Source: Alphaproteobacteria bacterium (lineage in GTDB: Bacteria; Pseudomonadota; Alphaproteobacteria; Rhodobacterales; Rhodobacteraceae). Taken from it: a stretch of DNA of 37,985 nt. Of this stretch, positions 17,287 to 18,199 are shown piece after piece. The stretch covers positions 1-37,985 of the forward strand of contig JAAAPG010000200.1 of the NCBI GenBank assembly GCA_009908405.1, given 5' to 3'. The notes beneath the pieces were generated by a model. It saw only the letters and a program-made list of their open reading frames with translations. It searched no databases and was not told the DNA's origin. Positions within the stretch are counted from its first letter, which is position 1; each line of letters begins with the position of its first letter. The position numbers and the translations under genes were made by a program.

Positions 17287-17868
17287 TCAGCGACGGCGGG
17301 ACAGGGTGTCGCGCAACAGGTCGGCCTCTGTCCCCACCGCGCTTGACGGACGCGGCGGCAGATGTATGCGCGCATCGAAATCGGGGGCCTGGTCGGCGAG
17401 GAACACCTCCGTGCGGCTGGACTTGACGGCTTTGAACGTGTCTTCTTTCCAGATCTGGAAATGATCGCCCTTGGCAATGAAGAACGCGGCCTCGTTCGGG
17501 TCCAGCTCCAGCTTGTCACGCAGGCGTTGCGGCAACACGATCCGCCCGTCCTCGTCGATCTGGGCATCGGCGGCATGACCATGGAAGGTCAGCTCCAGCG
17601 TTTCGCGCTCCGGGCTGCCGGGCTGCATCAGGTCAATCCGATCCTCGATATCCTCGATGGCGTTCAACGTGTAGCAATCCAGCCGCTTCTGGCTGTCCAG
17701 ACCGTAAACGATAACAAGATTGGGGCGCAGGCCGTCGGTCCAGTCCGGGTCGCCCACTTCGATCACGCGTCGGAAGCTGGCCGGGATCGAGACCCGGCCT
17801 TTGCTATCCACCTTCTGGTGGAAAGAGCCTCTGAACCTGCGTGCCACCTTGGGCGGTCCTTCGTCCAT
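17287..17868 (-). CDS. mraZ: Transcriptional regulator MraZ, first gene of the dcw cluster
   Basis: DNA-binding protein that usually represses its own dcw operon. 193 residues with two tandem SpoVT/AbrB-like MraZ repeats; both signature DxxxR motifs are seen (DSKGRVSIP at about 21-29, DEDGRIVLP at about 105-113). It is longer than the usual 140-170 residues because of a C-terminal tail after about 150. Upstream I do not see the TGGG-type repeats bound by MraZ in enterobacteria; instead there is a long leader with a terminator (next entries), suggesting control at elongation. Confidence 0.93.
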
Positions 17869-17896
17869 GCGCGGCGCGCGTCACGCGCCAGAAATG

Positions 17897-17936
17897 AAAA
17901 CGGCGGATCGAGCTGCTGCCACTGCCCGATCCGCCG
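17897..17936 (-). terminator. Terminator/attenuator inside the mraZ leader
   Basis: Perfect 10-bp stem CGGCGGATCG/CGATCCGCCG (17901-17910 and 17927-17936) with a 16-nt loop, followed on the minus strand by TTTTCATTTC. It lies between the leader and the mraZ start, so it would end most leader transcripts or be read through to express the dcw genes. Confidence 0.85.
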
Positions 17937-18199
17937 ACTGTCCCATCGCTGGGTGCCCGGTTGGCGCTCGCTTCCTTGGGGGGAGGGGATGCTGCTCGCG
18001 AGCGCGCCGGATCTGTGTTTTGGAAGATAAAGCGGGTGCCTGTATGAACTCTGCCTCTGCGGGGTCTTGGTGCCCCTGTGATGCCCGTTTATCTTGGAAC
18101 AATGATTGCCATGGGATTTCATGGTAATCAATCATCTTCTGGCAGATTTTTGAAAAATATCCTGGGAGACCGACCCCAACATACAGAATTAAATCTCTG
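17897..18199 (-). ncRNA. Long 5' leader of the dcw operon; UpsM-like sRNA
   Basis: The region upstream of mraZ has no gene but holds an intrinsic terminator 29 nt before the mraZ ATG. In Rhodobacter sphaeroides the same place gives an extended dcw leader that, when terminated, releases the sRNA UpsM, which RNase E cleaves under stress. The arrangement here matches: order, strand and terminator position. Three structured parts are visible on the minus strand: a dyad at 18103-18130 (11 pairs with one mismatch), a hairpin GGGG/CCCC near 18061-18076, and a stem 17964-17970/17999-18005 enclosing a C-rich loop with CCCCTCCCCCC. The 5' end is inferred from a weak promoter candidate and may be wrong by 60 nt or more. 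Confidence 0.72.

Follow-up and report, generated by a model that had tools for sequence, protein, structure and literature searches.

We conclude that the leader preceding mraZ on the minus strand of the window (the whole 37,985-nt stretch of DNA analyzed here) is very likely the Roseibaca homologue of UpsM, together with the termination/read-through and StsR-dependent mechanism that belongs to it. UpsM (RSs0682) is the 5'-UTR-derived sRNA of the dcw cluster in Rhodobacter sphaeroides (Weber et al. 2016, PMC5089854), where the dcw mRNA carries a 268-nt 5' UTR whose terminator releases the 206-nt UpsM and lets ~1 in 100 transcripts read through (PMC5089854). The initial annotation had recognized an UpsM-like arrangement in front of mraZ, and the relationship proved to be one of homology, beyond mere layout: the model of the window genus matches the leader of Cereibacter (R. 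sphaeroides group, genome G110) over its full length with E = 2.3e-31, and the four regions R1 to R4 described for UpsM (PMC5089854) are shared. UpsM and its occurrence throughout the Rhodobacteraceae have been known since 2016, when long terminator-bearing dcw leaders were reported as a family trait (PMC5089854), and the link to StsR was published in 2021. New here are the location of the partner RNA in the window genome and the tracing of both RNAs through the family, the distribution of the StsR-like RNA being our own result.

Organization of the dcw leader

The draft assembly of the window genome measures 2.58 Mb. Homology places the RNA between ~18096 and ~17896, which leaves 18097-18199 as promoter and upstream DNA; of the stretch first delimited at 17897-18199, only the rest would thus belong to the RNA. 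The covariance-model match (17890-18096, minus strand, 246 bits) outlines an UpsM homologue of ~201 nt (17896-18096), which would form the 5' part of a dcw mRNA leader of ~249 nt upon read-through (18096 to 17848, minus strand). The predicted UpsM/dcw promoter consists of a -35 element TTGATT (18126-18131) and a -10 element AATCAT (18102-18107), both on the minus strand and both kept in congeners and in family leaders; the -10 element is a weak match to the consensus, and the position of the promoter agrees with the transcription start deduced from R. sphaeroides. All parts of the RNA are on the same minus strand. R1 (18024-18095) has a closing stem AAGATAAACGGG / CCCGCTTTATCTT around a GGGG/CCCC hairpin (18076-18061), R2 is a long bulged hairpin (17956-18012), and R3, supported by structure and alignment, is a 4-bp hairpin CCCA-GCGA-TGGG (17942-17953) that precedes the terminator hairpin R4. 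The leader had been annotated as gene-free, and indeed it holds no recognizable gene; a sORF has been reported for R. sphaeroides UpsM (PMC5089854).

The longest mraZ open reading frame opens at ATG 17868, and the GTG at 17847-17845, 21 nt 3' of this ATG, is conserved in close relatives, with a ribosome-binding site GAAGGA (17857-17862, minus strand) 9 nt before it. Judging from the sequence, mraZ almost certainly starts at GTG 17847 and not at ATG 17868 (17287-17847, minus strand; Pfam MraZ, E = 1.7e-16; start kept in relatives). The gap between terminator and start is therefore ~50 nt, and the 29 nt given previously had been counted to an ATG that is absent from close relatives. The leader is followed by mraZ, mraW, ftsI, two Mur ligase genes, mraY, and a further Mur ligase gene, a gene order in agreement with the murein/division cluster named in the initial annotation. 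We also searched for MraZ-type TGGG repeats: the only TGGG-N6-TGGG in the whole window sits within another gene, and autoregulation by mraZ through such repeats was rejected on this ground. On the other side of the leader, a strong 13-bp terminator (18419-18388, minus strand) follows the upstream Mrp/NUBPL-type gene and should thus insulate the dcw leader from that gene.

The terminator hairpin R4

R4 (17901-17936, minus strand) pairs CGGCGGATCG (17936-17927) with CGATCCGCCG (17910-17901) in a perfect 10-bp stem with 16 nt between the arms, and the whole reads CGGCGGATCG-GGCAGTGGCAGCAGCT-CGATCCGCCG-TTTTCATTT over positions 17936-17892. The stem can be extended from 10 to 13 bp by one G-U and two G-C pairs, which leaves a 10-nt loop AGTGGCAGCA (17923-17914, minus strand). 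It is followed by UUUUCAUUU, that is, TTTT (17900-17897) and then CATTT; this U-tract TTTTCATTT (17892-17900, minus strand) is T-rich in relatives as well and is predicted to hold the 3' end of the sRNA. A pattern defined as a perfect stem of at least 10 bp, a loop of at most 16 nt, and TTTT within 2 nt was present a single time in the 542-nt leader and absent from all 1,000 dinucleotide shuffles, which confirms the perfect 10-bp stem with U-tract (17936-17901 plus TTTT) first noticed before mraZ. A generic terminator scan missed R4 solely because its loop limit is 8 nt.

Of 76 family leaders, 72 keep the loop of R4, AGUGGCAGCA, as GUGGCAGC / GTGGCAGC on top of a freely covarying stem. No partner was found for the loop AGTGGCAGCA. 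A tentative possibility is that the loop serves as a docking site for a protein or RNA that sets the read-through into the division operon, or as the seed with which UpsM pairs to other mRNAs.

Conservation and covariation across the Rhodobacteraceae

Congeners of the window genome include Roseibaca domitiana V10, R. ekhonensis, and Roseibaca sp. Y0-43, the nearest having a MraZ 94% identical to that of the window. Their leaders are conserved from CAAGATAAACGGGCA (18096) to the U-tract, with a mean column identity of 87% over 27 aligned leaders. A first covariance model built on the 27 congener leaders was searched against whole genomes. It gave matches in 221 of 249 family genomes, which nearly all represent different genera, and in none of ~285 other genomes of the class (289 drawn, four of them being family members); the covariance search that the initial annotation had proposed thus places an UpsM-type leader in most of the family. 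Among the 28 family genomes lacking a match with this model, some are good assemblies. A second model, built on 64 family leaders, picked up six of 20 missed family genomes and likewise had no match beyond the family. The UpsM-type leader is restricted to the Rhodobacteraceae in these searches, and in nearly all of the 76 family leaders inspected a MraZ-like start lies just 3' of the RNA, at a spacing of ~25-85 nt.

In the 64-leader alignment, 94.4% of cells can pair, and a change on both sides is seen for 19 of 35 pairs. None of 500 shuffles reached the observed covariation on any of five measures, and sliding the partner by 1 to 3 columns abolished the signal, every slid control falling below the observed value. 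R4 alone has 99.2% of cells paired and 10 of 13 pairs with a change on both sides, and R2 has 91.3% of cells paired and six such pairs. Since the R1 closing stem aligns poorly, its 5' and 3' arms were compared without alignment: arms of the same genome pair at -16.7 kcal/mol versus -13.2 kcal/mol with arms of other genomes, and none of 5,000 permutations was as good. R1, which Weber et al. (PMC5089854) had called hardly conserved, is thus variable in sequence but has a covarying closing stem.

The window leader is 76-83% identical to Cereibacter UpsM depending on the alignment (82.5% over aligned columns, ~76% in a separate comparison). The match in G110 (694,639-694,847, contig C4) falls inside the published mraZ ChIP peak of R. 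sphaeroides (694,110-695,200; PMC7240162). Cereibacter johrii carries exactly the G110 leader, and Luteovulum (Cereibacter) azotoformans has one that is 99% identical to it; in G110, the 67 nt from stem to GTG correspond to the published 268 - 206 = 62 nt plus ~5 U's. We consider that G110 is very probably R. sphaeroides 2.4.1. Against this assignment, a ChrR family search of G110 was empty and RpoE gave only weak matches, although R. sphaeroides is known to have RpoE and ChrR.

A StsR-like RNA and its complementarity to the leader

In R. sphaeroides, as described in PMC8307010, PMC8625941, and PMC11354728, StsR (RSs0827) is a stress-induced RNA of 72 nt. It pairs both with UpsM and with the dcw 5' UTR, alters their structure, opens them to RNase E, and lowers dcw mRNA. 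Two stretches of the leader are conserved beyond the needs of its stems, namely UUCAUACAGGC, which follows the R1 hairpin, and the R2 sequence CGAGCAG; CATACAGGC is found in 72 of 76 family leaders, and so is CGAGCAG. When the reverse complement GCCTGTATGAA was searched in four genomes, including that of the window, a single intergenic locus was common to all. In the window genome, this locus (L161) encodes an RNA of 76 nt on contig C263 (4997-4922, minus strand), with a CTTGGA/TATA promoter of the RpoH type, a hairpin, a terminator, and a core of 40-odd nt that scarcely varies, upstream of a gene resembling 3-hydroxybutyrate dehydrogenase. The model of this RNA matched 243 of 249 family genomes, that of the window included, and outside the family gave only four marginal matches (E ~3e-4 to 9e-4). 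The R. sphaeroides assembly G110 has one suitable locus, with the same core and a similar dehydrogenase gene adjoining it. On the basis of promoter type, length (72 nt published versus 76-77 modelled), and complementarity, the 76-nt RNA is very probably StsR, and its promoter is, by sequence, of the RpoHI/RpoHII type.

The window leader is complementary to the StsR-like RNA of the same organism, the predicted partners (leader/StsR-like RNA) being UUCAUACAGGC/GCCUGUAUGAA. The duplex combines GAGGCAG/CUGCCUC with a 12-bp UUCAUACAGGCA/UGCCUGUAUGAA helix and reaches -45.4 kcal/mol in RNAduplex versus -30.8 +/- 3.3 kcal/mol for shuffled partners, the best of 500 shuffles (-44.9 kcal/mol) coming within 0.5 of it. 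Pairing site 1, GAGGCAGAGTTCATACAGGCA (18037-18057, minus strand) with its core TTCATACAGGC (18048-18038), is identified by conservation and complementarity, and cofolding, which allows no pseudoknots, pairs it fully. CGAGCAG in R2 (17992-17998, minus strand) complements CUGCUCG near the 5' end of StsR and is a candidate second site, being paired in RNAduplex and not in the nested cofold. Upon cofolding, the R1 3' arm and the linker become more open, their mean unpaired probability going up from 0.47 to 0.69 for the window leader and from 0.23 to 0.47 for that of Cereibacter. Counted on the Cereibacter leader, the published cleavage of the 206-nt UpsM to a 130-nt product (PMC5089854) would fall near this R1 3' arm, in keeping with the published proposal that a double-stranded region is made accessible to RNase E by the pairing. 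The terminator is left intact in the cofold, and StsR is therefore not predicted to act as an antiterminator.

LexA-type and DnaA-box-like elements upstream of the leader

Upstream of the promoter, 20 of 26 congeners have a GTTC-N7-GTTC motif, a LexA-type (SOS) box, at a fixed distance of ~120 nt from the leader start. GTTC-N7-GTTC is the form that the LexA box takes in alphaproteobacteria. Members of the Roseibaca group, the window (18241-18227, minus strand) among them, have the degenerate form GATC-N7-GTTC, and the box is absent before the leader from 29 other genera examined. In this genus, the lexA genes are themselves preceded by GAAC-N7-GAAC, the same type of box read on the other strand, in all nine cases with readable upstream DNA. 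We regard the box before the dcw leader as putative and genus-specific. Moreover, DnaA-box-like sequences TTATCCACA and/or TGTGGGTAA (TGTGGATAA in L030) lie between the LexA-type box and the UpsM promoter in nine of 26 congeners (L014-L019, L024, L029, and L030), the window being without them. The genus-specific LexA-type box and the R4 loop are the parts worth a second look.

Discussion

We propose a model in which a single promoter (~18131-18102) would start all dcw transcription near 18096. Most polymerases would stop at R4 and release a sRNA of ~201 nt, and a minority would read through to give the mraZ-mraW-ftsL-ftsI-mur mRNA with its leader of ~249 nt. During stress or stationary phase, the 76-nt StsR homologue would be made from its RpoH-type promoter elsewhere in the genome; it would base-pair to the R1 loop motif UUCAUACAGGCA and perhaps, in addition, to CGAGCAG in R2. 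This pairing would open the R1 closing stem and expose an A/U-rich strand to RNase E, resulting in less sRNA and less dcw mRNA. By analogy with R. sphaeroides, in which Hfq binding and RNase E cleavage of UpsM are known (PMC5089854), the transcript ends, read-through, Hfq binding, RNase E cleavage, and stress control would be the same in Roseibaca, and the dcw operon would likewise be controlled by termination and read-through. StsR, which the initial annotation did not name, is a more specific part of this mechanism than termination alone.

Other readings of the leader were weighed against this model. It could be a plain intergenic sRNA gene whose terminator stands by chance before an independently transcribed mraZ, and the great excess of the R. 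sphaeroides sRNA over read-through RNA, ~700-fold over an amplicon spanning into it (PMC5089854), would suit such a gene. Nevertheless, reporters and 5' RACE revealed no promoter between UpsM and mraZ in R. sphaeroides (PMC5089854), a promoter scan of the minus strand of the window found no separate mraZ promoter, and a chance terminator is hard to reconcile with a mraZ that keeps so close to the RNA in nearly all of the 76 leaders; we thus hold this reading to be very improbable. A ligand-binding riboswitch steering R4 through an alternative fold would account for the strong sequence conservation outside helices, and Weber et al. (PMC5089854) did propose a R2/R4 refold for R. sphaeroides. The same authors, however, found this refold not to be conserved in the Rhodobacteraceae, and complementarity to StsR accounts for much of the conserved single-stranded sequence, so that a riboswitch appears highly unlikely. 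A riboswitch of a known class was rejected, the window having no Rfam match at the gathering score.

The remaining alternative concerns the action of StsR itself, which, or another RNA, could invade the 5' arm and loop of R4 as a direct antiterminator. In both the window and Cereibacter, 10 pairs, one of them G-U, are possible between ACUGCUCGAU of StsR and AUCGGGCAGU of R4, and a later paper of the R. sphaeroides UpsM group states that StsR interaction and cleavage affect read-through also. Against it, cofolding keeps R4 intact, and no more than 24 of 76 leaders have the full complement ATCG[AG]GCAGT, since StsR is constant and the stem is not. We consider direct antitermination unlikely, and as a general mechanism it was rejected, the complement not being kept across the family. 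The model of termination at R4 with StsR acting through R1 is therefore the one we retain.

Altogether, a brake on cell-wall and division genes that works through RNA, and that has so far been studied in one species, is probably ancestral and kept in nearly all Rhodobacteraceae, and its stress-induced partner RNA has probably been kept alongside the UpsM-type leader across the family. The link from stress to division thus becomes testable in marine and soda-lake relatives, and the alignments separate conserved parts that are explained (StsR sites and stems) from the R4 loop.

Compared with known systems, the window leader resembles UpsM of R. sphaeroides in its position before mraZ, its length of ~200 nt, the R1 to R4 regions, the 3' intrinsic terminator, homology, and family restriction. 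It differs in its shorter gap from stem to GTG (53 versus 67 nt), in the longer apical part of R2, and in R1 arms that diverge by compensatory changes. The partner RNA is likened to published StsR (RSs0827) by promoter type, terminator, length, and complementarity. SreA and SreB of Listeria, terminated riboswitch leaders acting in trans according to the discussion in PMC5089854, have in common with UpsM a 5' leader that yields a stable sRNA upon termination, whereas for UpsM no ligand or aptamer is known.
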